Part shown: one piece after another, positions 22,412 through 47,900 of the stretch
How positions within the stretch are numbered: the first letter of the stretch is position 1
Layout of the letters: each line of letters begins with the position of its first letter
Virus record (IMG/VR): IMGVR_UViG_3300044675_002404
Span: 1-50,518 of that record
From: a virus
Direction: 5' to 3' (one strand)
DNA length: 50,518 bases
The notes under the pieces: generated by a model
Told to the model about the DNA's origin: nothing
Databases searched by the model: none
Seen by the model: only the letters and a program-made list of their open reading frames with translations
Position numbers and translations under genes: made by a program

Positions 22412-22905
22412 TTGCCACCCTTCAAGCACTTACCTGCGGCAGCGCACTTCTTTGGCATGGGGCAACCAGCGCAAGGCTTGAATGCCTTGCCGCCATTTGC
22501 CATTTTTGCTTTGCCGCCATTTGCCATCTTCATGCCGTACTCTTTGGCTTCTGACATCATGATCTTCTTGCTGGCTCCACCTTTTTTCAGGGCGGCCATT
22601 TCTTTTTTAGCGTGACCACCATTTGCCATTTTTAACATGCCTCCATTTGGAGACTCTGGCATAGCGCCGGTAGCTGGCATGGATCGAGTGGCTGGCATGG
22701 CTCGGGTAGCTGGCATATCTCGGGTAGCTGGCATTGATCGAGTGGCTGGCGCACCTCGGGTAGCGGGAGCTGGACGAGGAGCTGCCATAGCCCGAGGAGT
22801 AGTTGAAATTCGAGTGGTAAGAGGCATAGTAGCCCCTTTAACCTGACCGCCGTTGGCGTAGCCTGCGGGGATCATGCCCTTCTTGGCAACTTTTTTGGTC
22901 ATCAT
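22408..22905 (-). CDS. Repeat protein: MPATR and MANGG repeats with C-terminal Cys cluster
   Basis: 165 residues, basic. Residues about 40-82 hold six or seven copies of the hexapeptide (R/A/S/D)-M-P-A-T-R; residues about 13-140 carry four copies of (Y/M)-A-N-G-G-x-(V/A)-K. The C-terminus has C-A-G-C-P-M-P-K-K-C-A-A-A-G-K-C, a possible metal site. Coupled to the portal gene by an ATGA overlap, with AAGGAG upstream. Expressed beside the portal, but no function is known; the A-N-G-G units connect it to the A-D-G-G tags of other proteins in this block. Confidence 0.65.
   Translation of the reverse strand: MMTKKVAKKGMIPAGYANGGQVKGATMPLTTRISTTPRAMAAPRPAPATRGAPATRSMPATRDMPATRAMPATRSMPATGAMPESPNGGMLKMANGGHAKKEMAALKKGGASKKIMMSEAKEYGMKMANGGKAKMANGGKAFKPCAGCPMPKKCAAAGKCLKGGK
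22664..22774 (-). repeat. 18-bp tandem coding repeats (M-P-A-T-R units)
   Basis: Read leftward, about six degenerate copies of an 18-bp unit encode (x)-M-P-A-T-R. On the plus strand they appear as alternating GTAGCTGGCATxxxTCGxG words. Third positions differ between copies, so the array is old or under protein-level selection. Copy-number change by slippage is likely. Confidence 0.75.
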
Positions 22906-24936: not shown

Positions 24937-26373
24937 TCATGCCCATGCTTTGCTGGACGCTTTTTTAATTACCCGTGCTCTCACTTCTACTTTGCCGCTA
25001 CGAGCTGCTAAACAGAGGTACTGGAGTGCATCGTGTGGATGACTGAATCTATCTTTGACTGGTCGGTCTCGGTATCTTTCACCGGCGACCTTGAGTCGTT
25101 CATACCTGTAACCGCCGAGGAACCCCTTGCGGAGTTGGCGGCAGTTTGGCGAGAGAAGAAATCCAGGTTCTCCCCCAGCCAGCTTGTTGAGGAAGTAAGC
25201 AACCGATTCTCTGCGTGGTATGAAATCGTTTGTGTTTGTTGGCTCACTTGCAATCCCAGCCTCAAGAAGTTCTTGGTAGCAGGTTCGCTCGTCCGCTTGA
25301 GACCTATGCGTTCCGGCGGGGTCACCAACAGAGATGAACCGCATTCCGGAGTAGGTCGTCATCAGGGCTGGCTTGACGATTTCCTGAGCAAATTGTCTGA
25401 TGCCCATGTCTTCAGCTAGGAACTCTTCAAGAATCACAAGCTGCCCACGGGCAGTAATCTGTCCGACGATGCAGGCTGGTGTGAGTCCGAAGTCCCATCC
25501 AAGATACAGAGGGAGTCCTCTGTTCACAAGGATCTCTTCTTCCGAGGTATGGATTCTGTCGTTGTACTCTGGGTAGACAGGCTTTCCGTCAGCGGTGGTT
25601 CCGTACTGGCCGAGGACAAAGACTTTGATCCAGTCGTCGGACTTGCCCTTAATCATCTTCAGGTAATACTCATACCCTTGAGGAAGGTTGAACACATTCT
25701 CCGCATCCGGATTCGGCTTGTATTGAACATCATCGCCCTCTTGAAGACGAATGAGACCACCCGGTTGGTTAAAGAATTCCCATCCTTCGGGGGTGTCTTC
25801 TTCTGCAATCTTGTAATACCAGTGATCGTCGTCAGGCGGGTTGGTATCGAGGATGACGCATGGATGAACGGGGCCGCCGCCGTGAGTCTTCGCGGGGTAA
25901 CGACCGATCCTCTGTGTAACCATGTTGAAGACTTCATGCGGAACCTCTGAGGCTTCATTGATCCAAGCTCCAGTAAGTTCAAGAGATCTCAGTTTGCCGG
26001 TTTCGGAAGCTTTGTCTAAAGCGATGAAGATGACTTCGAGATCCAGTCCGTTGCCATCTCCACAGTCCTTGATCTTCATGTGAGCTGTGATCGGGGCATC
26101 CCACTTGATCGGAGCCAGCTCGTCATTGAACCAAGTCTGCCAAGTCTTGATCGTGGTGGACTTGAGTTCGGGGTAGGTATTGCGGATAACAGCCCATCGA
26201 GCCTTGCGCCAACCATTGTGTGGGGTTTGCTTGAGGGAGTGCTTGACAATCTCCATGCAGCAGGTGGAAGACTTTCCGGAGCCGACCGGCCCTTTGATTC
26301 CTCGGACATCAGCCTCAGAAGTATGAAAGTCGGCAGCCACTTGTCCTGGCGGCATGTACTGGATAACAGTCAT
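24937..26373 (-). CDS. Terminase large subunit
   Basis: 478 residues. ATPase: Walker A G-P-V-G-S-G-K-S-S at 28-36; Walker B within L-T-G-A-W-I-N-E-A-S-E-V near 135-145. RNase-H-like nuclease: Y-L-G-W-D-F-G-L-T-P near 290, I-S-V-G-D-P-A-G near 347 and S-H-P-H-D-A-L-Q-Y near 440 supply the acidic residues. It packages DNA through the portal and cuts it. The start overlaps the TerS stop by 4 nt. Confidence 0.93.
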   Translation of the reverse strand: MTVIQYMPPGQVAADFHTSEADVRGIKGPVGSGKSSTCCMEIVKHSLKQTPHNGWRKARWAVIRNTYPELKSTTIKTWQTWFNDELAPIKWDAPITAHMKIKDCGDGNGLDLEVIFIALDKASETGKLRSLELTGAWINEASEVPHEVFNMVTQRIGRYPAKTHGGGPVHPCVILDTNPPDDDHWYYKIAEEDTPEGWEFFNQPGGLIRLQEGDDVQYKPNPDAENVFNLPQGYEYYLKMIKGKSDDWIKVFVLGQYGTTADGKPVYPEYNDRIHTSEEEILVNRGLPLYLGWDFGLTPACIVGQITARGQLVILEEFLAEDMGIRQFAQEIVKPALMTTYSGMRFISVGDPAGTHRSQADERTCYQELLEAGIASEPTNTNDFIPRRESVAYFLNKLAGGEPGFLLSPNCRQLRKGFLGGYRYERLKVAGERYRDRPVKDRFSHPHDALQYLCLAARSGKVEVRARVIKKASSKAWA

Positions 26374-26651: not shown

Positions 26652-26833
26652 TGTTTCCTCTTGTAGTTTGTTGGCTACTCGCTACGTCTGTTGTACGAAC
26701 CCCAAAGATTACAGCATCCGCTTTGACCAACACGAATGGAGACTGTATGACGTTTGCCATCGATTGCCGAAGCGTTCTTTGACGGTACTCAATCCCCATA
26801 CGTCTTGAGATGGTTTGTCCATCATTGGCAGGG

Positions 26834-26862
26834 AATATACCCACCCGATCCGGAATATGCAA
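26834..26862 (-). promoter_or_regulatory. Late leftward sigma70-like promoter
   Basis: On the minus strand: TTGCAT (26862-26857), 17-nt spacer, TATATT (26839-26834). Start would be near 26827, about 175 nt before TerS. Best leftward promoter in the control region and well placed to drive the packaging/structural genes. A palindromic 12-mer (26890-26901) lies about 28 bp upstream of the -35, a position suited to an activator or repressor. Confidence 0.65.
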
Positions 26863-26888
26863 TACCTTTTCCGGCATTCCTGATTACA

Positions 26889-26990
26889 ACTCTGATCTCA
26901 GAGACACTTGCCAGTAGAGTGGGTTATTGGGTTTATGGGTTATTGGGTTGCATCGTGTTTTCAGCTCTGATTTCAGAACTGATTACAGAG
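26889..26990 (+). repeat. 12-bp palindromic repeats TCTGATTTCAGA (iteron/operator-like)
   Basis: TCTGATCTCAGA at 26890-26901 (within a 14-bp palindrome 26889-26902), TCTGATTTCAGA at 26966-26977 and ACTGATTACAGA at 26978-26989, the last two in direct tandem at a 12-bp period. Between them lie G/T-rich words: TTGGGTTTATGGGTT at 26926-26940 and GGGTTGCATC at 26945-26954. The same words and the same tandem 12-mer occur at 40785-40850 inside the initiator-like gene. Candidate replication-initiator or regulator sites. Confidence 0.65.
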
Positions 26991-27544
26991 AATTTGAGTA
27001 TTTCGTAGAAAAAATAATTACTGGTGTTTGTATAGACCCCGGTGTTTTTGAGACGAGGACATGAAAAAGGTTTAGTGTTTGTGTATTACCTATAGCTAGA
27101 GGCTCAGGACGCACGCAACGCATGGCACGGCCACGCCACCCCCCTGCCCCTGATCGCACCCGAGGGTCATAGCAGGCGCACGCCGTCCCAGAGGGACAGA
27201 TCTGTCGATTTTGGTGAGCTGTAGACCGTGATTTCCCCTGATTTTGCCCTCTAAAGAGGGTAGATGTACGTCATGGCATGGGCGCATGAAGGGATGGATT
27301 GACGTTTTCCGTAGGAAAGTGTGGGCAATTTACTGAATGTCCAATTTCCCATACCCAAAATTCCAATCTATTCAACGCCTTGCATAATGCACGTATTGAC
27401 TATTGCTCTCGATTTCACCCCTATATGACCCATTAGCGAAGCAGTGCCTGTGATGCCTGCTCTAAGGCTTTGCGGCTTAGAATCGAGGTTCAACCCCAAA
27501 ACAACACCCTTTTCCAACTATTTTACGTAGTAATAGGGGTCGAA
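26991..27544 (+). other. Control region without convincing genes
   Basis: About 550 bp with no credible coding sequence. Contents: a GC-rich stretch at 27105-27195; hairpins GTCCC/GGGAC (27185-27197), CCCTCT/AGAGGG (27247-27260), TTTCC/GGAAA (27306-27318), TCTAAG/CTTAGA (27461-27481), CTA..TTAC/GTAA..TAG (27518-27536); a 12-bp palindrome GACAGATCTGTC (27195-27206); and weak rightward promoter-like pairs (TTCCAA-16-CATAAT at 27361-27388; TTGACT at 27396 with TATATG 20 nt later). Rightward transcription of the early genes probably begins here, but no single start stands out. Confidence 0.5.
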
Positions 27545-27887: not shown

Positions 27888-27941
27888 ATGGCAGTCTCTG
27901 ACTGTTATGCACTGGACGCTCTGTCCTTCTTTCCGGCTTAA
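27888..27941 (+). CDS. Possible leader peptide (17 aa) before the ATPase gene
   Basis: ATG 27888 with AAGGG just upstream reads M-A-V-S-D-C-Y-A-L-D-A-L-S-F-F-P-A and stops at TAA 27939-27941. That stop lies inside the hairpin CCGGC/GCCGG (27933-27947), 41 nt before the ATPase start. The layout resembles a leader peptide and attenuator, but there is no T-run. Confidence 0.25.
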   Translation: MAVSDCYALDALSFFPA

Positions 27942-27981
27942 AGCCGGTCTATCGCAACTCACCGCATCGAAAGGAAATCCA

Positions 27982-29133
27982 ATGCGTGACTCACTCGTTC
28001 CCCTCTCCAAGCCCGAAATCCTGTGGATTTTTCGTCACCTCAACGGTGGAACCGTAGGTTTCAACTTCGAGACTGTCCAAAAATTGGACTTGATCGACAA
28101 GCTTCTCTTGACCTTCTCTGAAGGTCAGATCTCCGAGGCCATCGCCAATGGTCTCCCAACCGTAAACCCCAAAGGGGTTGCAATGACTGAGGAAAGTCGC
28201 CCTATGCCTCCCGCTACCAAGCCTTCGGCTCCCAAAGCATCAGACTCTGATGCCCTCGACGCTCTCCGCAAATTACTGTCTCCGACAGTAGATGAAGCAA
28301 CTGTCCGACAGATTGTCATGGCAGAGGTCAAAAAAGCAATGGACGATAGTCCAGTGGTCAAGATCGAGGTCGTTCGACCTGACGGTTCAGCCCACAAAGT
28401 GGAGGGTCACACTCGCCCCGAATTCAAGGATGTGTTGCTTTCAGCATCCTGCGGCTTGAATATCCTGTTGGTTGGCCCTGCCGGTTCCGGCAAGACTCAC
28501 TTGGCTCACCAAGTAGCTGAAGCTCTTGGTAGACCCTTTGCCTCGGTGTCCTGTACCGCCGGAATGTCAGAGTCAGCCCTTCAGGGCTGGTTGATTCCCT
28601 CTGACGGTGGTGCTTTCCAGTATCTGTCCAGTGACTTCGTGAAAATGTACGAAGAAGGCGGTGTTTTCCTGTTCGATGAGATCGATGCCGCTGACAGTAA
28701 TACATTACTGTTCGTCAACCAAGCTTTAGCTAACGGTTCGTTTTTCCTCCCCATTCGTAAGAATGCTTCGGTGGTGAAACGTCACCCCGATTTTGTCTGT
28801 ATTGCCGCCGCCAATACCTTCGGTACTGGGTCAAATCAGACTTATGCCGGTCGTGAACGACTCGATGAGGCGACTCTCGACAGATTCCGTGCCGGAACCA
28901 TAGTCCTTGACTATGACCAAACCTTTGAACGTAAGGTAGTGGCTCCCGACCTGTTGGCTTGGGGTTGGGCGATTCGTAAACGAATCACTGAGGCAAGGCT
29001 CAACCGAGTCATGTCAACTCGATTCCTGCTCGATGCAACGAAGTTGCTGAAAGCCGGTAAATCTGTCAAGGCCATTCAAGATACCTACTTCGTAGGTTGG
29101 AAGTCTGACGAACGTAGCAAAGTGGAGGTTTGA
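27982..29133 (+). CDS. CobS/MoxR-like AAA+ ATPase
   Basis: 383 residues from ATG 27982 (AAGGA 6 nt upstream; an earlier in-frame start lacks one). N-terminal helical part, a Pro/Lys linker (70-90), then AAA+ core: Walker A G-P-A-G-S-G-K-T at 165-172, Walker B V-F-L-F-D-E at 228-233, sensor N near 278 (A-A-N-T-F-G-T-G), arginine-finger region L-D-R-F-R near 300. Closest in layout to CobS, the cobaltochelatase ATPase, as carried by many phages. Followed after one base by a vWA gene, the usual MoxR-vWA pair. Real role in phages is unknown. The gene is unusually rich in nucleotide hairpins. Confidence 0.88.
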   Translation: MRDSLVPLSKPEILWIFRHLNGGTVGFNFETVQKLDLIDKLLLTFSEGQISEAIANGLPTVNPKGVAMTEESRPMPPATKPSAPKASDSDALDALRKLLSPTVDEATVRQIVMAEVKKAMDDSPVVKIEVVRPDGSAHKVEGHTRPEFKDVLLSASCGLNILLVGPAGSGKTHLAHQVAEALGRPFASVSCTAGMSESALQGWLIPSDGGAFQYLSSDFVKMYEEGGVFLFDEIDAADSNTLLFVNQALANGSFFLPIRKNASVVKRHPDFVCIAAANTFGTGSNQTYAGRERLDEATLDRFRAGTIVLDYDQTFERKVVAPDLLAWGWAIRKRITEARLNRVMSTRFLLDATKLLKAGKSVKAIQDTYFVGWKSDERSKVEV

Positions 29134-29134
29134 A

Positions 29135-30001
29135 ATGATCTACAGCAAAGCTGACAACCTGACCGCTATCCTTTGGGATAGCGTTACCGAACCCGAAGCC
29201 ACCCTAAAGGGTGAGTGGAAGGTTGAATCCAACAAGCCCAGTGCCGAAGAGCACTGGAAACGCAAATCCGACACCGATTGGCTTGGTGTCGCCACTGTCG
29301 CAGAGCTACGCTCTGTTCTAACAAAGGGCTACCCTGCCGGTGTCGCTAAGCTTTCCAAGCTTACTGTCGGTGACTTACCCGCTCCCCAAGATATTCGCCG
29401 CCGCCGAGTCCGCTCCGATCAAGGCGACGAGTTGGATATGCAGGCCGTGTACCGAGGCGACCTGAGCAGGGCTTGGTCTAGAACCAAGCGACAGAGCAGA
29501 ACATCTGTCCGATCTGTCTCGATTGTGATCGACTTAGCCGGTAACGCTAACGTGACTTCCGAGCAGTTGTTTTGGCGAGGTGCGGCGGGTCTTCGACTGG
29601 CTGATGAATTGACAACGGCAGGCTACTCTGTAGCTGTGTACGGTGCGGCAGGTGCTACCAACTACACATCAGATGGCGGCGATGACGTATGTCAATTCGT
29701 CGAAATCAAGGCGGAGGATGCCCCGATGGACATGGACAGATTGGCTTCGCTGACTTGTCTCTCAGGGTTCTTTAGAACCTCGCTGTTCACTGGGATTATT
29801 TGGGCGGCTGACAAGCTGAACAAGCGGGTTTGCAGTGGTCTAGGTCGATCAGATAACACCCTCATTGCCAAAGGCATCAAGCAGTTGCCCATCCCACAGG
29901 AGGCAATCATTCAACCGGCACTGAAGAACAAGGATACCGCCGAGGCTTGGCTCAAATCTGTTCTCGAACAGATCGCCAACCCCGAACTGAAGGCCGCATG
30001 A
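29135..30001 (+). CDS. vWA-like partner of the ATPase (CobT-like)
   Basis: 288 residues. N-terminal 1-80 with W-D-S-V and A-E-L-R-S-V; a basic segment (R-R-R-R-V-R near 88-93); then a vWA-type fold opening S-I-V-I-D-L-A-G-N-A at about 129-138. The metal-site motif D-x-S-x-S is degenerate here (D-L-A-G-N), so metal-dependent adhesion may be lost. GGAGG is 7 nt before the ATG, inside the end of the ATPase gene, indicating coupling. MoxR/CobS ATPases act on client proteins through such partners. Nucleotide hairpins continue through this gene. Confidence 0.75.
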   Translation: MIYSKADNLTAILWDSVTEPEATLKGEWKVESNKPSAEEHWKRKSDTDWLGVATVAELRSVLTKGYPAGVAKLSKLTVGDLPAPQDIRRRRVRSDQGDELDMQAVYRGDLSRAWSRTKRQSRTSVRSVSIVIDLAGNANVTSEQLFWRGAAGLRLADELTTAGYSVAVYGAAGATNYTSDGGDDVCQFVEIKAEDAPMDMDRLASLTCLSGFFRTSLFTGIIWAADKLNKRVCSGLGRSDNTLIAKGIKQLPIPQEAIIQPALKNKDTAEAWLKSVLEQIANPELKAA

Positions 30002-36268: not shown

Positions 36269-36759
36269 GCGGCAAGCTCGAAGCCGCCATCGGTAAACAT
36301 CTGTTCATGTAATCTTTCAATGGCTCGTACCTGCACTGGCATCCAAGCACGAAGAACAGCGTTGCGCCAGTTGCAGACTTGCCTGTAGCTCACGCCCCTC
36401 TCCTCTGCAATCTTCCGTATGCTTGGTCTCTTGGTTGACCAGTGCATGAGAATGATCTGCAACTCACGGACACTAGGTACAGTACCGCTTACATGATGGT
36501 GCAAATATCCTGCGAACCCACGTATCGCATCAGACCTAATCCGACCCCTCCCATACATCGACAGAATCGAATCTCTCTCCACCTGATGAAGCCTGCCCAC
36601 CATAGACTGGATCATCGCTGCTTGTGCGTGTAAGTCCATAGGCGACAAGTCATCCTGACTCGTGCCTCTCGTGCCAAGCAAATCTGTTCGGCTGAACTCC
36701 TGCCTCTCGCTGACATTGAACGAGAACTTAATCGCCTGCTCGACACTGTGAAATCTCAT
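36265..36759 (-). CDS. HTH regulator-like protein (164 aa)
   Basis: 164 residues from ATG 36759 (AAGGA 6 nt upstream; a TTG two codons earlier is less likely). Middle helices with H-Q-V-E-R-D-S-I-L-S-M-Y-G-R-G, and a C-terminal helix-turn-helix R-P-S-I-R-K-I-A-E-E-R-G-V-S-Y-R-Q-V-C-N-W-R. Reminiscent of sigma-like or antiterminator-type late regulators. Last gene of the leftward replication block, a usual place for a late activator. Confidence 0.65.
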   Translation of the reverse strand: MRFHSVEQAIKFSFNVSERQEFSRTDLLGTRGTSQDDLSPMDLHAQAAMIQSMVGRLHQVERDSILSMYGRGRIRSDAIRGFAGYLHHHVSGTVPSVRELQIILMHWSTKRPSIRKIAEERGVSYRQVCNWRNAVLRAWMPVQVRAIERLHEQMFTDGGFELAA

Positions 36760-37151
36760 ATCCAATCCTTGTCTTCGGTGATCGTTACATGGAGACCGCC
36801 ATCTTTAATTGGCTGTCCAAGTTTAATCCACAAGGATGTTATCTGCCTGTCATTCTCATAGGCTATCCCCTGTAGCGCATCTAACGCTACCTTCTGTGCG
36901 TTATCTATATCTATTCTCCGCACACCCAATCCCCACAACCTGTCTTTCTTCTCTCGCTTCTCTGCATCCGCTGGCCTAACTGGATGGAGAACCAACACCA
37001 CCGCCACTGGGACAGTGAACAGTTGCAACTTATTGGCTTTGGCTATCCAGCCAACCTCATCCTTGTACGCAATGGCGGCACTGCTCCTGACCATGCGCCC
37101 ACGAAAGTTTCTCCAGTACACGTTCGTGCTGATCGGGTACGGCAAGATCAT
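36756..37151 (-). CDS. rusA: RusA-like Holliday junction resolvase
   Basis: 131 residues from ATG 37151, in an ATGA overlap with the previous stop. RusA features: P-I-S-T-N-V-Y-W-R-N at the start, then R-R-I-D-I-D-N-A-Q-K-V-A-L-D-A-L-Q-G near 75-95 with the conserved Asp residues, and Y-E-N-D-R-Q. Cuts branched DNA formed in recombination and before packaging. Neighbours are HNH-like and HTH genes. Confidence 0.85.
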   Translation of the reverse strand: MILPYPISTNVYWRNFRGRMVRSSAAIAYKDEVGWIAKANKLQLFTVPVAVVLVLHPVRPADAEKREKKDRLWGLGVRRIDIDNAQKVALDALQGIAYENDRQITSLWIKLGQPIKDGGLHVTITEDKDWI

Positions 37152-37672
37152 GTCTGTTCTTTCTTCGGCCTGCCAACCTTCTTCTTGGATGCCTCGATCT
37201 TGTTCATGATCTCCTCCATAGCCTTCGTGCTTGGGAGAGATACGACCTGACCAAGCATACCCATCATTGCCTGCTCCCATCTCCGTGAGTCTCTGACGTT
37301 CTTCAGTGGTATCCCAACAAGACCGCCGTTGCTGGTGTCGGGTTTGACGAACACAGTCTCAGGATGCTCGCACCTACCAAGCCCATACTGTTCGTCTCTG
37401 TAGATTGGAGTGCAGTCTTTGCAGTGTTCGATTGTTACTGTTGCCCTGCGGTCGGGCGCACTGCTATGCACGAATGCAACCACGTACTCAGACCACTTGC
37501 GCTGGCTCTCGTAACAGGTCGGCTTGTCTTGCTTGGCTACTCCCGCAACAACCAATCTGTCGAACTCTTTCGCAACAAACTCAGGCTCGTGTCCGAGGCA
37601 GTACCCGTAAAACCCCGATGGTTGCTCGCAGCCGACTGTCTGACACTTCCGTATTGTTCTACTCTTTTCCAA
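37148..37672 (-). CDS. Zinc and AT-hook DNA-binding protein
   Basis: 174 residues starting at TTG 37672 (GGGG about 10 nt upstream; no ATG is available until far inside). Two cysteine/histidine groups, C-Q-T-V-G-C ... C-L-G-H and H-C-K-D-C ... C-E-H, then a C-terminal AT-hook K-K-V-G-R-P-K-K. That combination implies minor-groove DNA binding. Role in replication or recombination is inferred from neighbours. Confidence 0.65.
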   Translation of the reverse strand: MEKSRTIRKCQTVGCEQPSGFYGYCLGHEPEFVAKEFDRLVVAGVAKQDKPTCYESQRKWSEYVVAFVHSSAPDRRATVTIEHCKDCTPIYRDEQYGLGRCEHPETVFVKPDTSNGGLVGIPLKNVRDSRRWEQAMMGMLGQVVSLPSTKAMEEIMNKIEASKKKVGRPKKEQT

Positions 37673-38000: not shown

Positions 38001-38335
38001 GCCCCATAACCCTTGCGCTCTATCCGTTCGTTCGCCTGTGTTGTCTGCCACACTGCAACTCCCAGCCTCAAGATCTCCAACTCCCATTTAAGTTTCTCTG
38101 AAATCTCTGTTGCCGTGCGAAGGTCAATCAACATTTGAAGATACTTCGCATCAGCCCTTGCTTCTCTGTCCTGAGCGGCGGCTGTCTTGAATCCTTGAAG
38201 CTCATACTCTTTCATGAGGATTGCAAGCAACGACTCTCGGTACTTCTCAAGGTAATTCCTTTTCGCCTGAGCCTCTGAGAACAGACCCGCCTTATCCCGC
38301 ATCTCAGCGAGTCTTGCTTCTGCCTTTTCGTACAT
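37997..38335 (-). CDS. Helical protein in replication block, unknown
   Basis: 112 residues, entirely helical and charged, with E-K-Y-R-E-S-L-L-A-I-L-M-K-E-Y near the middle. Overlaps the nuclease start (ATGA) and the previous end by 32 nt. No family recognised. Confidence 0.55.
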   Translation of the reverse strand: MYEKAEARLAEMRDKAGLFSEAQAKRNYLEKYRESLLAILMKEYELQGFKTAAAQDREARADAKYLQMLIDLRTATEISEKLKWELEILRLGVAVWQTTQANERIERKGYGA

Positions 38336-38567
38336 TCTTCACCTCCGCCTGTACACTGTAGTTTGCTGGGATTTGGAACAGATTCTTCTCTTCCGTCTTC
38401 TTTCCAATCTCTTTGCCTGTCGTTAAATCTTTCGCCCAGATAAGCTTTGATCCAGGGAACCTGGCGTTAACCTGATCCATCAACTTGGCTATCTCTGGCA
38501 TCTGTTCTCTGTTCTTTTTCTTTTGCTCTTCTCGGATCTGGTCTTTGATGTCAGCAACATCTTTCAT
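38304..38567 (-). CDS. Basic protein in replication block, unknown
   Basis: 87 residues, Lys/Glu-rich: Q-I-R-E-E-Q-K-K-K-N-R-E-Q at the start, then K-L-I-W-A-K-D-L-T-T-G-K-E-I and a basic tail. AAGGAG precedes the ATG 38567. Unknown. Confidence 0.55.
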   Translation of the reverse strand: MKDVADIKDQIREEQKKKNREQMPEIAKLMDQVNARFPGSKLIWAKDLTTGKEIGKKTEEKNLFQIPANYSVQAEVKNVRKGRSKTR

Positions 38568-38578
38568 GGTTTATCTCC

Positions 38579-38890
38579 TTAATGAATTCCGATGGCAGCC
38601 AACCCTCTTGCTACGGCAAGCGCCCTTGTTTCGTGAAGCGACCTTATCTGTTCGCACAACTTCACAAAATCCTCCCCAGACTTTGGAACCCCCCAGTCCG
38701 AGACAAAATCTGCGGCCTGATTGAGGGCGATCTTCCTTATTGCGGCAACATTCGCAAACGTATTTGGATTCTCCTTGGTCATCTCAAGATCAAACGAGAG
38801 CTGGTGGACTGCCTGCTTATAGGATTCCAGCATTGCATAGGCTGACTCAAGCTCCATCATTAAATCATGCGCCGTTGGTGCATTGCTCAT
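38579..38890 (-). CDS. Helical protein after the helicase gene, unknown
   Basis: 103 residues from ATG 38890, in an ATGA overlap with the helicase stop; an upstream start would lie inside the helicase gene. Helical: L-E-S-A-Y-A-M-L-E-S-Y-K-Q-A and I-R-K-I-A-L-N-Q-A-A-D-F-V. Might assist the helicase, by position only. Confidence 0.55.
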   Translation of the reverse strand: MSNAPTAHDLMMELESAYAMLESYKQAVHQLSFDLEMTKENPNTFANVAAIRKIALNQAADFVSDWGVPKSGEDFVKLCEQIRSLHETRALAVARGLAAIGIH

Positions 38891-39834
38891 ATTGCTACTC
38901 CTTCTTCCTGCATGTATCTGTCGTATCTGTAATAAGTCGGATGGCTGGGTGACTGGGAGTATGAGCAAGCGCCAGCCCTGTAGAACAAACCAACCTTGCC
39001 CTCCCAATCTCCGTGTCGATTCTTATCACACACCAAGATTGCATCAGGCATACCCTCGTCCACCTCTTTGCCAGCCTGAACCTGTTGTTCCTTGCGTTTG
39101 TTTCTCCACACGGTGAAGCACTGATCCACCTGATCTACGATTGCGCCACTGCCCTTTGCGTCCATCTTGTTTGGTATCTGCATCTCATCTCCAAGCTTGC
39201 GGCTGTGATGGATGATGTGGACATGGACGTTGAAGTCCAAAGCAAACGCACACACGCTATCAACGAAGTTCTTCTGACCGTTGTAGTCATCCTCGCCTTT
39301 GACAACCTTCATGAGCGAGTCAACTACGAAGTGCTGAATGTCAAGCTTCTTCGCTGCGTACCTCATGATTGCCAACAGATGCGCTGGATCTGTCTGTCCC
39401 ATCTTGTCGTACAGCCAAAGTCTTCCTGTCGCATGGTTGATTACCGCATCGACGAATCTATTCGTTGGCTGAGGAGCGCCAGCCGCCTGCTTACACATGC
39501 GAGCGAGTGTGGCTCTTGGCTTCATCTCGAAGCTTGCGATACAAACCTTTTGGTTCTGATGCAAGAAGTCCAGCATGACATGGCTGGTCAATAGAGATTT
39601 ACCGTGACCATTGATACCCATCCACAAGCTCACCTCTCCAGCCCTGAACCTGATATGGTCGTGCGTCTTAGGCCAAGGAAGAGTAGCTCCCTTAACCATC
39701 TCCCCGCCATTCAGTAGTTCGATGGTCTCGTCTCTGTATGCCTTTGGCTCAGAGATCTTGTCCTTATCGTGCGGCTCACTGGCGTACTCAGCAAAGTCAA
39801 TGCTGTCAGCCGAAAAGATCATGTTAGATGACAT
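38887..39834 (-). CDS. DnaB-like replicative helicase (RecA-type core)
   Basis: 315 residues. Core: R-F-R-A-G-E-V-S-L-W near 62-71, Walker A G-I-N-G-H-G-K-S at 73-80, F-E-M-K near 100 (S-F-E-M-K-P), Walker B I-Q-H-F-V-V-D-S near 165-172, H-I-I-H-H-S-R-K near 200 and a C-terminal R-finger region. No primase or N-terminal domain, so it is only the helicase half of a T7 gp4/DnaB-type enzyme; host primase would be used. Follows the initiator gene in the same operon. Confidence 0.82.
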   Translation of the reverse strand: MSSNMIFSADSIDFAEYASEPHDKDKISEPKAYRDETIELLNGGEMVKGATLPWPKTHDHIRFRAGEVSLWMGINGHGKSLLTSHVMLDFLHQNQKVCIASFEMKPRATLARMCKQAAGAPQPTNRFVDAVINHATGRLWLYDKMGQTDPAHLLAIMRYAAKKLDIQHFVVDSLMKVVKGEDDYNGQKNFVDSVCAFALDFNVHVHIIHHSRKLGDEMQIPNKMDAKGSGAIVDQVDQCFTVWRNKRKEQQVQAGKEVDEGMPDAILVCDKNRHGDWEGKVGLFYRAGACSYSQSPSHPTYYRYDRYMQEEGVAI

Positions 39835-40298: not shown

Positions 40299-40496
40299 TC
40301 ATTTCTTCATCTCCCTAACGTATATGGCTAGGCCACTCACGGTGTCAGCACCAAAGGAGGTGAGCTTCTCAATGTGCTGTGCTACCTCTTCAATGACCTC
40401 GCTACGGACGTTATCAAGGCATCTTTGAATCCCATCCATCTCTTGCTCCAGTCGAAGCAAGTCAGCCTCAAACTTTAATTGTTCTTCCGTCTTCAT
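40299..40496 (-). CDS. Short coiled-coil protein (65 aa)
   Basis: 65 residues: a helix L-K-F-E-A-D-L-L-R-L-E-Q-E-M-D, then V-I-E-E-V-A-Q-H-I-E-K-L. ATGA overlap with the initiator gene. Perhaps a dimeric cofactor; unknown. Confidence 0.5.
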   Translation of the reverse strand: MKTEEQLKFEADLLRLEQEMDGIQRCLDNVRSEVIEEVAQHIEKLTSFGADTVSGLAIYVREMKK

Positions 40497-41170
40497 AGCA
40501 TCCCCTCAAAATGAACACTGGTTTGTTCTGCCGTCTCATCCTCCCACCTACGCTGGTTCAACCACGTACTGGGGAACGGAATGAATTGACCACCGTCCTT
40601 TGTCCAGTCAGTTGTTTGCTTGGATGCGTTGACAGATGCAAGCATCTTGGCAAGGACGGTCTCATCAGGATTGATCTTTGTGAACGCCTTCAGTGCCTCA
40701 GCCTTTGCTATCTTGCGAGGGTAGGCTGACCAAAAGGAATCGAACCACTCCGTAGGTAAGGTGGGCTTAAGGGTTCTTGGGTTCTTGGGTTTATGGGTTG
40801 CATCCTGAATCGGTTCTGGTATCTGTTCTGATTTCAGTTCTGATTTCAGAGATTCTTTCTTGCTGATCTTGGCTTTGTTGGCTCGTCTCGCAGACTCAGC
40901 CTTGCCGTGGTACTTCTCGATCTCGAAGTCGCAACGATCATTTCTCCAGCCATCGTCAGCCTTCGTGAAGAACTCGTGCAACACACGATCAACGTCTTTG
41001 GCATGGTCGCGCATGGCGATCAAACGAGCGCAGTCTTCTGATTCGAGGGGGAGTGGCTTCTCTTCTGTGTAGTACACATCCATCAGCCTGCGGTACGCGA
41101 GGTCTTCGGTTTGGCTGAGATGCCTTGTCTTCGTCAGGTAGTCCCTGATATGAAATTGATAGCTGAACAT
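40493..41170 (-). CDS. DUF1376/replication-initiator-like protein
   Basis: 225 residues. Residues 1-80 are DUF1376: Y-Q-F-H-I-R-D-Y-L, D-L-A-Y-R-R-L-M-D-V-Y-Y, R-L-I-A-M-R-D-H. A basic linker (95-130) is followed by W-F-D-S-F-W-S-A-Y-P-R-K near 140 and P-F-P-S-T-W-L-N-Q-R-R-W-E-D near 200, the helicase-loader/O-protein-like C-terminus. First gene of the leftward block and upstream of the helicase, so it likely loads DnaB at the origin. Its linker DNA carries the 12-bp repeats that also occur at 26.9 kb. Confidence 0.75.
   Translation of the reverse strand: MFSYQFHIRDYLTKTRHLSQTEDLAYRRLMDVYYTEEKPLPLESEDCARLIAMRDHAKDVDRVLHEFFTKADDGWRNDRCDFEIEKYHGKAESARRANKAKISKKESLKSELKSEQIPEPIQDATHKPKNPRTLKPTLPTEWFDSFWSAYPRKIAKAEALKAFTKINPDETVLAKMLASVNASKQTTDWTKDGGQFIPFPSTWLNQRRWEDETAEQTSVHFEGML
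40785..40850 (+). repeat. 12-bp tandem repeat and shared words inside the initiator gene
   Basis: TCTGATTTCAGT (40827-40838) and TCTGATTTCAGA (40839-40850) in direct tandem, with TTGGGTTTATGGGTT (40785-40799) and GGGTTGCATC (40795-40804) just before. All four words recur in the same order and orientation at 26926-26989. On the coding strand they encode the basic linker (L-K-S-E repeats). Lambda keeps its origin iterons inside its O gene, so this may be an origin. Confidence 0.65.
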
Positions 41171-41447: not shown

Positions 41448-42224
41448 ATGTCAGACCAAAACAATGAGTTTTTGAGCGTATGGAACGCCTCATGCACAAC
41501 CGACCCGCGCCACGTTAAATCGTTCAGCAGGGGCGGCGGCTTCTCCGGCACAGCCATCAATCACACCTACCAACTTCGCAAAGCCACTGAGATGTGGGGG
41601 CCAATGGGCGGCATGTGGGGGGTGTCAATCATTGAGCAGGGTCTCATGCACGGCACACCAATCATCGTCGATGAACTCACTGAGGAGTGGACGTTGGACA
41701 GTAAAGGTGAGCGTGTACTAACTAAGTCAATCGTACACAAGCACTGTGTAGCCAGCGAGTCTGTCCATTTTGTCAGGATAAAACTGCGCTACCCGATCTT
41801 CGCAAAGAACGACTTGGGTCAAGATGTCCACACCGGCACTGGTGAGGTGGAGCACTTCGGTCAGACAACCTTTGTCGGCAAGAACAAGAATGGCTACTTC
41901 ACAGACGAGGAAGCCCCGAAGAAATCCTTAACAGATGCTATCGGCAAGGCTCTGTCAATGCTGGGATTCTCTGCTGACATCTACCTCGGCCTGTTCGACG
42001 ACAACAAATATGTCAACGACCGCAAGGCAGAAGCCGCCAAAGCTGGCGCACCCAAAGCTGAGATCAAGGCCAAGATGACAGCCGAACAGGTAGACGCATT
42101 GAAGCGCAGGCTGTCCGAGTGCAAGTCAAAAGATACCCTCCGTGGTCAGTTCGCTCTTCTGTCTGAGGACGAGAAGGCTGTGACCGAGGAGTTCTGCAAA
42201 GCTCTCGCCAAGGGTTTGGAATGA
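41448..42224 (+). CDS. ssDNA annealing/recombination protein (Rad52/ERF-like)
   Basis: 258 residues from ATG 41448 (AAAGGA upstream). Central part Y-Q-L-R-K-A-T-E-M-W-G-P-M-G-G-M-W-G, then F-T-D-E-E-A-P-K-K-S-L-T-D-A-I-G-K-A-L-S and L-G-F-S-A-D-I-Y-L-G-L-F-D-D-N-K-Y-V, the segment typical of phage annealing proteins of the Rad52-like group (Sak/ERF and relatives). C-terminus is a Lys/Ala linker with a helical tail. Coupled to an exonuclease and SSB, the standard recombination pair. Confidence 0.75.
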   Translation: MSDQNNEFLSVWNASCTTDPRHVKSFSRGGGFSGTAINHTYQLRKATEMWGPMGGMWGVSIIEQGLMHGTPIIVDELTEEWTLDSKGERVLTKSIVHKHCVASESVHFVRIKLRYPIFAKNDLGQDVHTGTGEVEHFGQTTFVGKNKNGYFTDEEAPKKSLTDAIGKALSMLGFSADIYLGLFDDNKYVNDRKAEAAKAGAPKAEIKAKMTAEQVDALKRRLSECKSKDTLRGQFALLSEDEKAVTEEFCKALAKGLE

Positions 42225-42841
42225 ACCCGAACCAAAAGACAGAACAGTGGCACAAGGACAGAGAGGGGAAGCTGACAGCTTCTGCTTTCGGCCAGGCAGC
42301 AGGACTCGGGCCTGGGTCACGGCAACTGTTGTGGCGAAGGATGATGGGGTTGGAAGAGCCATTCGTTGGAAACACGGCAACAGATTGGGGTGAACAGAAT
42401 GAGGCTACGGCGATTGAGGAATACCGTAATCGACACATGGAAGAGAACGCTCGCCTCGATTTGGTGGGGTTCGTACCCCATCCGGAGATGGCTTGGCTTG
42501 GAGGTTCACCCGATTTTCTTGTTGGGGATCAGGGGTATGGCGAAGTTAAATGCCCGTACTCCCAAACCCTCTACCCCGAAATACCACCGTACTACATGGC
42601 GCAGATCCAAGGCGGGATGCAAATCACAGGAAGATCCTACTGCGACTTCGTGGTATGGACACCGGAAATAATGTCTGTCACAAGAGTGGACAGATCGGCA
42701 GAGTATTGGGACTGGCTGCATCTGCGGCTGGCTGACTTTTGGTGTTGGGTGGTAGCCCAAGTAGAGCCACCAAGAGAAAAGAAATCCCAACCACCAAAGC
42801 TCGAATCACATGCAACTTTTCTTTACAAATTGAAGGATTAA
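42221..42841 (+). CDS. YqaJ/lambda-exonuclease-like recombination nuclease
   Basis: 206 residues. W-H-K-D-R-E-G-K-L-T-A-S near 10-21, W-G-E-Q-N-E near 57-61, G-S-P-D at 95-98, E-V-K at 108-110 and Q-I-Q-G-G-M-Q near 128-134: the D-...-E-x-K catalytic set of YqaJ-type exonucleases. Degrades one strand to give ssDNA for the annealing protein. Four-nt overlap with the previous gene. Confidence 0.88.
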   Translation: MNPNQKTEQWHKDREGKLTASAFGQAAGLGPGSRQLLWRRMMGLEEPFVGNTATDWGEQNEATAIEEYRNRHMEENARLDLVGFVPHPEMAWLGGSPDFLVGDQGYGEVKCPYSQTLYPEIPPYYMAQIQGGMQITGRSYCDFVVWTPEIMSVTRVDRSAEYWDWLHLRLADFWCWVVAQVEPPREKKSQPPKLESHATFLYKLKD

Positions 42842-44320: not shown

Positions 44321-44943
44321 GATGATCTCCTCCATCTTCCTCTGTCTGCAAGCTCTTGTATTGTTCTCTTCCTGACGATGAACTCAATGGCGCACTCGAC
44401 TCCGGGGAACATTGTTTGGTCTAAACGCTTTGCCCCGTACTCATAGCCATCGCTTATGAGTTCCATCTTAATTACTTCCGCTGCCTCACCAAGATCGACA
44501 AACAGATCTGTTACGTTGATGGACTGATCTGACCAAGAGTATTTCTTGTGCGTGGTGAACGTCCATTTGTGGTCTGAGTTATAGGTGCTTGGGAATACAC
44601 CCTGCTCATACAGATCCTCGTCGGGGACGGTGACAATGAGATGGCCTCCACGCTTCAAAAGATTGAACCAAGCCTTGAGGCCAGCCCGTGGATTGACAAG
44701 ATGCTCTAGGCAGTGGCTGCTGTGAACAAAGTCTAGGGACTCAGCAGGAACACCAGCCATGAACTGTGCGTCCCCATCTTCTAAGTCCCATATCCTGACA
44801 TCGCCCATGCCGCTGAACATATCTCGATGCGCCGAGATTGGATCTGGCCTACCGCCGATGTCTACTCCATTCCCAACAAAGTAACGCTTCGCAAAGTTCG
44901 GGTCACGAACTCTGCGGGTCATGGATTTACTGCACTCTTTCAT
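44317..44943 (-). CDS. SAM-dependent methyltransferase (class I)
   Basis: 208 residues. Glycine motif G-V-D-I-G-G-R-P-D-P near 26-35, acidic D-L-E-D-G-D-A-Q, then L-D-F-V-H-S-S-H-C-L-E-H-L near 70-82 and L-L-K-R-G-G-H-L-I-V-T-V-P near 96-108: the Methyltransf_11 pattern. No DNA-recognition domain or DPPY/NPPF motif, so small molecules, sugars or proteins are likelier targets than DNA. Sits after the giant protein in the late block; with the glycosyltransferase and oxygenase it may form a modification set. Confidence 0.8.
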   Translation of the reverse strand: MKECSKSMTRRVRDPNFAKRYFVGNGVDIGGRPDPISAHRDMFSGMGDVRIWDLEDGDAQFMAGVPAESLDFVHSSHCLEHLVNPRAGLKAWFNLLKRGGHLIVTVPDEDLYEQGVFPSTYNSDHKWTFTTHKKYSWSDQSINVTDLFVDLGEAAEVIKMELISDGYEYGAKRLDQTMFPGVECAIEFIVRKRTIQELADRGRWRRSS

Positions 44944-47900
44944 TTCTTGGCTGCGATACGAATGTCCTCGACATCCTTGGCTATCTGGATGCGAAGCTGT
45001 TGCAGTCTTTCAATCTCAAGCCGCTTCTCTGCGCCACTCATCTTGGGATCATCTTCCACTATCCTCACCTGTTTACCAATGGTTGACATCATGTTGGTTC
45101 CTTTGGTGTACAGCTTGGCTAGGGCAATCTTGTCGCTCTTCTCCACGAACGCTTCCTTGGCTTTCTCAAGCTGACCTGAGTTCAGGAAGTGGCTTACATC
45201 TGATGTTGCGGTTGCGATGTCCTTGGCGTTCTCATAGAACGATGTGACATAGCGAGACTGTGACTGAGGAACTGTCTTGACATAGTTGCCCACAACCAAG
45301 AAGTCATCAATACGCTCGTACCGTGACGATGCGCCATCTTTGAATGGAGTAGCCGCCACATTGGATGCTGTCTGAATTACTGTTCCGACCCAGCCAAGGT
45401 ATCCCTTGAGCAAGTAGTCGTACTGAATTGGCGATAGCTGCGTGGACTGTGTGCCGATAGCCCCGCCGGTAGCCTTAGAAGCAAACTCAGCGAACAGACT
45501 GTTGACAGTTCCAAGTGCAACAGCAGCTCCAGATGTTCCAGGGGAGACACGGTTCTGGACAGATATTCTTTCCATGCCCATGCTTTCGATGGGCCGGTCA
45601 GTGAATCCATCTTTGTTACGGGCGATGTCGTAGAGAGGGCGGATGGCCTGCGGGATGGGGTTGATGGCGAAAGTGTCATGCAACACAGCCAGCAATCGTT
45701 TTCCAAAGACTTTGCCCTCGACCTGTGAGTCGATCATCTGTTCTGTCATGCGCTCAACCAGAGTCGCAATCGCACCCATCTCGAATGGCTTGGGGATGCG
45801 GACGGCTGTTTGAGTTCCGGGGATCTTGAACCAGAAGAAGGCATCACGATCCCAGTCTTCACGCTTCTTCCAATCCTCATCGTCCTTCTGAGACAGATAC
45901 AAGATCATGGCAGCAGTCACGACAGCTCCGGTGACAGTGGCAAACTTTGCCGCCTTCTGTCTCTCGGTGTCTGAAGCTTTGCCTGTCAACACCTGCATGG
46001 TGGGGTCGAGTCCATCACGACCCAACTTGTACAGACCCTGAAGTCTGGCGTTGAAGTACGGCAGAACCTGAGCCGCATAGCGGATGGCAGACCAGCTACC
46101 TTGCAAGCTGAAGTCCTGCAAATCTCTTGCGGCGTAGGATGCCTCAAGGTGCGAGGCTCCCTTTGCGCGGAGTTGTTGGTACAGCGCGAGGCGGTTGGCA
46201 TTCTCAGAGGCATCGCTCACCTCGTCGTACTTGTCTTGCATCTTTCCAAAGAAGGAGGCCACCTTCTCTGGTGTGTCCAAGATGTCAGCTTTGTTCACAC
46301 CCGTCTTGAGCAGGCGCTTCACTGATGCGGACTGATCTCCGTCGAAGGCGTTGCCCATAGCAAACAGTCCGCCACCAGCAAGAGCCTCGGCACGTTCCGT
46401 CTTGTAGGCTCTCCATCCCTGCATCACGTTGCCCATTGGGTTGCCACTGAGTTCAGACAGACCGATAGACTGGATCGAGTCTCGGATCAAGTTGTTGATC
46501 TTGAAGGTGGGAGACAAGGAGATGAAGCGAGTCAACGTAGTTTTAAAGCCACGCATGATGTCCATGCCCCATCCGTAGCTGGGCATCTGAGCAACAGCAG
46601 ACAGTGATGTCAGAAGGAACTCGTCGTCGATGCGGTAGAAGGTTTCTTTGCCCTTCTCCATAACTTTAACAGCGCCCTTCTCTTGTCTTTCCAGCTTGGT
46701 AACGATGTCGCCCATCTGGGTAGCGGAGGTCAATGCTTCCACTGCCGCTTGGTTTTTCATCGAGGCTGACAGGATGTGCGTCCAGTTCATCAGGACGTTC
46801 TCCATCAGGTCATTCAATGGACGCTCGCTTCCCTTCAACTTCTTGGATAGATACTGACCAACAGCTCCAGAGCTGGTCTGGGCTGCGGACAGGCTGCCGT
46901 CATCTTCCATCTGTCGATAGAACGGGATGTACCAGATGTCTGCGGAGAAGCGTTTATACCCTTCGGCATCAATCAACCCGGTATCCCTGGCGACATCCAG
47001 AACAGATCTGTTCAGCTCGTTCATGTTCTTCAGGGTCTCGGCGTAGATAGCAAGACGAGACTTACCATTCTTCATCGTACCCATGTTCAGGCCACGCAAA
47101 GACTTAATGTCTTCAGGGCTGAAGAAACGCTCGCGCTCGTCTTTCGACAGAGCCGCTGCACGGTTGGCCGCAATCCAGAGCAGGAAGCGATCAACCTCGC
47201 CGCCCACAGGATCAAGAACCTCCAACAGTCCCTGTGTTCCTTTCTTCACATTCAGTGCGCCGTCATCATTGAAGACTTGACCGTAGTGCAGAAGAGCGGA
47301 GACAGCACCATCCTGAGAACCAGACGACATGCGAAGCATGAGGTAGGCTTTCTGACTGATGTCACGAACAGAGCGGAACTTGTCGAACGTACCTTGAACG
47401 ATACGCATTGCGAAGTTTGGACGGAGGCGATCCAGTCTCTCCTTGATTGTGGGAGGAGAGTAGAAGCCTTTGTTCAGCGCACGTTCGCGGGTGTCAGGGC
47501 TGACATCAGAGAACTGATCTTCGTAACGCTTGCGGCTGAACATTGGAAAGCCATCATTGGCGACCTGCTCTTGTAGCTTTTCGGGTATGACAAAGCCAAG
47601 CTGTTGTCCCGTATCCTCAAGCTCCATTACGGTGACCGAATCTTTCCCGACGATAGACTTAGCGACAGAAGGAACAATGGTGTTGTAGAACTCGCGCATA
47701 CCTGCGCCACCAGCATCAAGATTTTCTCCACGAATAGCTTTAACGGTGTCGTCAACTTGCTCACCGACACCATCGACCATCATCTTGGCTATGTCTTTTC
47801 CATACGTCCGGCGGATTGACTCCAATCCCATCTGACCACTGCCTTGGCCTACCTCATTCCCATCCTTTAAGGCGGTCACCTCAAATGTTTTGCCGTCCTC

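Follow-up and report, generated by a model that had tools for sequence, protein, structure and literature searches.

The virus record IMGVR_UViG_3300044675_002404 comes from a virus that infects bacteria, and its 50,518 bp are the whole stretch of DNA analysed here (the window). A composite two-part repeat is present twice in this window, once between genes (site A, 26921-26989) and once inside the gene of a DUF1376 protein (site B, 40771-40850). These two places raise the question of whether one replication protein binds both and, if so, what each of them does. At each site the minus strand carries 12-bp near-palindromes (TCTGAAATCAGA), then GATGC, then 8-bp iterons (ACCCANNA); order and polarity are identical at the two sites, which lie 13.8 kb apart. 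A preliminary description of this DNA had reported the same repeats in the same order at two loci, the second of them within a DUF1376/O-like gene, and both observations are borne out. The block limits that it gave (26926-26989 and 40785-40850) are correct at their ends, but both blocks start slightly earlier. The features are collected in Table 1.

Table 1. Positions of the repeat blocks and of the genes and elements discussed with them
Feature	Position	Strand	Remark
Site A, 8-bp iterons AACCCAATAACCCATAAACCCAATAACCC, 3.5 units	26921..26949	-	near-invariant in 25 aligned sequences, flanks changed
Site A, GATGC spacer between 12-mers and iterons (GCATC in the preliminary description)	26950..26954	-	matching element at B, GATGC/GACGC
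Site A, tandem 12-bp near-palindromes TCTGTAATCAGT TCTGAAATCAGA GCTGAAAACAC	26955..26989	-	
AT-rich candidate unwinding element abutting the site A 12-mers	26981..27020	.	instability and conservation
Promoter-proximal 12-mer pair TCTGAGATCAGA GTTGTAATCAGG	26879..26902	-	stays beside promoter in relatives
Candidate late promoter TTGCAT-17-TATATT, ahead of terminase genes	26834..26862	-	kept in relatives
Terminase large subunit, late operon downstream of site A	24937..26373	-	
Site B, 8-bp iterons AACCCATAAACCCAAGAACCCAAGAACCC, inside DUF1376 gene	40771..40799	-	8-bp period crosses reading frame
Site B, GATGC spacer and tandem 12-bp near-palindromes TCTGAAATCAGA ACTGAAATCAGA ACAGATACCAGA ACCGATTCAG	40800..40850	-	synonymous constraint
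DUF1376 protein, 225 aa, proposed origin-binding initiator	40493..41170	-	PF07120; PHROG primosomal / replication initiation
DnaB-type helicase, same operon as DUF1376 gene	38887..39834	-	
RusA-like Holliday junction resolvase	36756..37280	-	
YqaJ-type exonuclease	42221..42841	+	recombination gene as in recombination-dependent replication

The repeats were counted in the window and in shuffled sequences. TGGGTTTATGGGTTGCATC with up to three mismatches occurs twice (0.00 expected), and the tandem 12-mer pair CTGANNTCAGNNCTGANNTCAG, also with up to three mismatches, occurs seven times against 0.43 expected, five of the seven lying within A or B. The lone TCTGATTTCAGA with up to two mismatches is found 16 times where 7.9 are expected, a modest excess over chance, so the signal lies in the tandem arrangement and not in the single 12-mer. 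In a motif-free comparison of 120-bp windows over the whole genome, site B shares the most 8-mers with A (24, the runner-up sharing 5; z 18.7). The window and the genomes G001, G002 and G004 each contain exactly two 8-bp arrays, of the same polarity. The ends of G001 overlap and make it a closed circle, so the count of two arrays holds for a whole genome.

The match of the site B protein to the DUF1376 domain (PF07120) is strong (E 5e-24, 85 bits against a Pfam gathering cut-off of 30.1). Site B lies where its gene codes for the linker, with disorder predicted (residues 112-136, pLDDT under 50 in the protein model), after a predicted winged-helix-like domain. Synonymous codon identity among 18 related genes is 0.918 at B and 0.665 in the rest of the gene, which places B first of 196 blocks. 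Since eight is not divisible by three, the array cannot be a peptide repeat. Iterons under DNA-level constraint in the middle of an initiator gene are the arrangement of a lambda-type in-gene origin.

The preliminary description held that repeats absent or scrambled in close relatives would speak against initiator sites. Both copies are kept in relatives, and their motif type changes in concert. In one clade the ACCC units have given way to ACCA/ACCT, at site A in L038-L042 and at site B in L022-L025 and L079; here the A contigs are tied to the B contigs through neighbouring genes that they share, not through a common contig. G058 combines GATA(T/C)GAAATCA 12-mers with AACCANN iterons of 7 bp, at A as well as at B within a single genome. 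In G016, G-rich units of 12 bp precede the small terminase gene, occur just ahead of the DUF1376 gene and recur in its linker. When B is sought as the best genome-wide match to A without reference to any motif, it is recovered in 6/6 same-genome pairs, from whole or near-whole genomes (the window, G001, G002, G004, G058 and G016), with z of 10-22. The A sites of L060, L062 and L063 have AACGGACGTT dyads with ACCCATT iterons, and those of G062 and G067 have ACCCAGTCGGG dyads with AACCAAT iterons; both types are known inside the DUF1376 genes of other phages. The conservation and the concerted motif change support initiator sites at two loci, one of the two options of the preliminary description, and one protein as the probable binder of both. 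The other option was operators that couple replication to the late promoter.

The second copy is not universal. Methylophilaceae phage P19250A and Pseudomonas phage psageK9 resemble the window in having dyads followed by AACC iterons in the same DUF1376 linker; they differ in that the iterons are 7 bp long and a search of either genome for a second array found none. Searches for a second copy in G057, which has a diverged initiator, and in G059 likewise gave none, so the family can do without the second copy. The diverged DUF1376-like initiator of G057 (38173-38865) has a linker with AGCTNAGCT repeats and a TTCATC 6-bp tandem.

The in-gene array is a common property of DUF1376 genes. A chain of at least four AAC triplets at exact 7/8-bp spacing is present in 49 of 59 such genes and in 0 of 71 control ORFs, which are other long ORFs of the same loci and never have more than two AAC in a chain. 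Synonymous shuffles destroy the array in 42 of the 59 genes (p of 0.05 or less). In 25 records a single 7-bp array was found, inside the DUF1376 gene where checked. A scan of all viral contigs for three tandem AACGNNCGTT found at least 80 stretches; among the 80 listed, 55 have a DUF1376 match at the array, others lie in weak DUF1376 or Lin1244_N genes (PHROGs: replication initiation or primosomal), and two are A sites. A literature search, with most subscription journals outside its reach, found no paper tying DUF1376 or YdaU to an origin. In the AACGNNCGTT class (G021, G024, G030, G032, G038, G047 and G048) the linker pair is accompanied by a second dyad pair at a distance of about 200 bp; that of G048 falls within the sequence coding for the DUF1376 domain.

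In the Lin1244_N phages G070 and G069 the composite, here with short repeats of the AAAGTAAAG type, is present within the gene and again at a non-coding locus. Their twin arrays are of opposite polarity to each other, unlike those of the DUF1376 phages.

Site A has leftward late genes on one side and a rightward operon on the other, and is upstream of the terminase and late genes. Across 25 aligned A sequences TTCTGAAATCAGAGCTGAAAACA.GATGCAACC... is nearly unchanged, while the flanks get inserted or replaced. In the late promoter proposed in the preliminary description, TTGCA...TATATT is conserved in relatives but lies under the threshold of a consensus scanner, no site having reached it in a sigma-70 -35/-10 scan. 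The promoter-proximal 12-mer pair lies about 16 bp upstream of the -35 box and is confined to the window's own clade. An insertion of about 90 bp in L029 and L054 separates the iteron array from this pair, which stays with the promoter. The full array at A is present in G058, L060, L062 and L063, but the pair is not. For the window's clade the pair suggests an added regulatory role of the same protein at the late promoter, through which replication and late transcription may be coupled.

The region around A produced no match as a nucleotide query against an annotated phage collection, and Rfam reported nothing at its gathering threshold for the window and 12 relatives. Site A was also considered as a packaging signal (pac), an identity that was set aside, since the block recurs within the DUF1376 gene and varies along with it.

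Variable, exchangeable hairpin-like modules (CAAGACGCATGGGGATTG...CAGTCTCCATTCGTGTTGG and others) occur in the leader that runs from the late promoter to the small terminase gene (26660-26830, minus strand). Their number and content vary among the close relatives L029-L054; they have no Rfam match and their folding z-scores are mixed. More distant relatives (L056-L063, G057, G058 and G062) have a conserved CCTCAAGCGG...GGTGAGG...ACCGCAG...GTCTCCT upstream of terS and after the late promoter. This element is possibly a structured RNA, with no Rfam match in those searched. On the other side of A, the first genes of the rightward operon (27907-30001) encode a MoxR/CobS-like AAA ATPase and then a DUF7192 protein, and both recur in those relatives whose sequence extends over this part.

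The AT-rich segment beside site A is the second least stable place of the window, which equals the top 0.01% of 40-mers. This core is kept in most relatives and replaced in L042 and L047. In 5/5 genomes checked A adjoins or overlaps an extremely unstable 40-mer (top 0.05% or better). The region of B is less unstable than that of A: it ranks within the top 0.4-3% in four of these genomes and within the top 0.02% in the fifth, G016. GC skew had been put forward as a further check. Both the total skew and that at fourfold sites follow gene orientation, and no origin is indicated by them.

The N domain of the DUF1376 protein is modelled as winged-helix-like (H-H-H-beta-beta). All its structure matches are weak (Foldseek E never below 0.9, VIA Z about 5-6) and comprise many unrelated winged-helix proteins and no specific relative; they weakly indicate a winged-helix-like shape of the model, not a relative. 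The sole sequence match in the PDB, a weak one to LTV1 (E 0.0009), was taken as chance. The dyad class is tracked by the N domain in 32 of 40 cases and by the C domain in 20 of 40, or in 24 and 19 when identities are under 65%, so a somewhat better fit to the N domain is only suggestive.

Two further features of the window concern other genes. An 18-bp tandem repeat array of CTGGCATGGCTCGGGTAG type is found at 22656-22799 inside a leftward ORF of the structural region. A single leftward ORF of 1796 aa occupies 44940-50330 and is conserved in relatives.

In-gene origins are known in phages. The lambda origin is one region in the middle of the O gene, with four iterons and an AT-rich tract (PMC7466680). 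The comparison with lambda O made in the preliminary description is apt in that iterons and a putative AT-rich tract lie in the middle of the presumed initiator gene; it also fits the location in the linker, the predicted winged-helix-like N domain and the neighbouring DnaB gene. The window differs from lambda in that each site has two classes of repeat and a further copy exists in non-coding DNA.

In the Bacillus subtilis phage SPP1, oriL is in gene 38 and oriR is 12-13 kb away, both are bound by G38P, and oriR is a proposed place of fork stalling and of the onset of concatemer synthesis (PMC6316719, PMC3485210). SPP1 and the window share two similar sites with direct repeats, one in the initiator gene and one intergenic among late genes, and both phages encode a helicase and recombination genes. 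The AT-rich unwinding element of the SPP1 origins has a strong candidate counterpart at A in five genomes and a moderate one at B in four of the five. The window has candidate initiator-binding repeats in the presumed initiator gene and in a distant non-coding region, with binding predicted here and demonstrated in SPP1. The window also differs in its 12-bp dyads and 8-bp iterons, in its proposed DUF1376 initiator (G38P in SPP1) and in the 12-mer pair at the late promoter. SPP1 oriL/oriR is a closer precedent than lambda for the pair of sites. In Vibrio cholerae, RctB of chromosome 2 recognises 12-mers and 39-mers, and a distant site, crtS, affects initiation (PMC5395669, PMC11711613). The parallel is a single initiator acting on two site types, 12-mers among them, with a remote locus in addition; the differences are the bacterial chromosome, the 39-mers and, in the abstracts of both sources, the lack of any described in-gene origin.

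We consider it probable that A and B are two loci bound by one protein, most likely the DUF1376 protein, and that they are origins or origin-like nucleoprotein sites. By analogy, twin origins as in SPP1 are the most likely form of this. The repeats, their conservation, the constraint at the DNA level and the concerted change at both loci are observed, and the identity of the binding protein, the firing of either site, its direction and the division of labour are inferred. The winged-helix domain of the DUF1376 protein would read the 11-12-bp near-palindromes, which differ between phage lineages, and a complex of the protein would nucleate on the adjoining 7-8-bp AACC-type iterons. The AT-rich DNA beside the iterons would then be opened for the DnaB helicase from the same operon. 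Site A, the copy near the late genes, might serve as a second origin or a late one, or else as a barrier to forks that sets off the change to concatemer synthesis. The 12-mer pair upstream of the late promoter may let the same protein also affect late transcription.

The possibility that A is a fork barrier or a titration (handcuffing) site, which would restrain or redirect initiation at B without being an origin in its own right, is a serious one, although we hold it tentatively. It is a sub-case of the two-site model, so its probability overlaps with that of the model and the two cannot be added. The stalling of forks proposed for SPP1 oriR, through bound G38P, is in its favour, as is the shared polarity of A and B in DUF1376 genomes. 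The window also encodes the RusA-like resolvase, the YqaJ exonuclease and, in addition, an exonuclease-family recombination gene. A study of ectopic copies of the lambda origin asks whether these interfere with proliferation (PMC4488673). The two Lin1244_N twins, with their opposite polarity, argue against it.

It is unlikely that B alone is an origin and that A serves mainly in transcriptional control, the initiator activating or repressing the late promoter and perhaps the rightward early genes too, so that late expression follows replication. Such a role would suit the position of A, flanked by divergent operons and followed by a conserved late promoter, and the conserved 12-mer pair is placed like an activator site. 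This pair is limited to the window's clade, however, and is parted from the array by the insertions in L029 and L054. Site A moreover has every part of the composite, iterons included, and the most strongly unstable DNA, which is beyond the needs of an operator.

We regard it as quite improbable that some other protein, such as a phage repressor or host factor, binds the repeats and that their place inside the DUF1376 gene is incidental. The iterons do co-occur with more than one type of C-terminal domain (G059). A scan by DNA motif alone nevertheless found most of the listed arrays in the linkers of DUF1376 or Lin1244_N initiator genes, and the array types change together at both loci and follow the N domain of the initiator to some extent. 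That the repeats of B encode a protein feature, their likeness to A being chance or a recent functionless duplication, is scarcely credible: linker peptides such as NHKPITTN are common in the DUF1376 family, but periods of 8 and 7 bp run across the reading frame, the choice among synonymous codons is frozen at B, the array is lost on synonymous shuffling, and A is non-coding yet conserved.

Two loci bound by one initiator thus remain the preferred reading. The window would thus have an in-gene phage origin, of a known kind, with a second, co-evolving, non-coding copy, and the main interpretation of the preliminary description is well supported. Evenly balanced, in our judgement, is the wider proposal of a general and undescribed origin design. 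DUF1376 and Lin1244_N initiators would carry a two-part origin, of lineage-specific 11-12-bp dyads and short iterons, in their own linker, several lineages would independently keep a co-evolving non-coding second copy, and twin origins would be recurrent, with origin specificity readable from sequence.

DUF1376, a domain of unknown function, thereby gains a concrete and testable role. The replication origins of many uncultured phages would be predictable from sequence alone, and the twin-origin layout of SPP1 would recur with unrelated motifs. This bears on why a phage keeps two origins and on how theta replication switches to concatemers.
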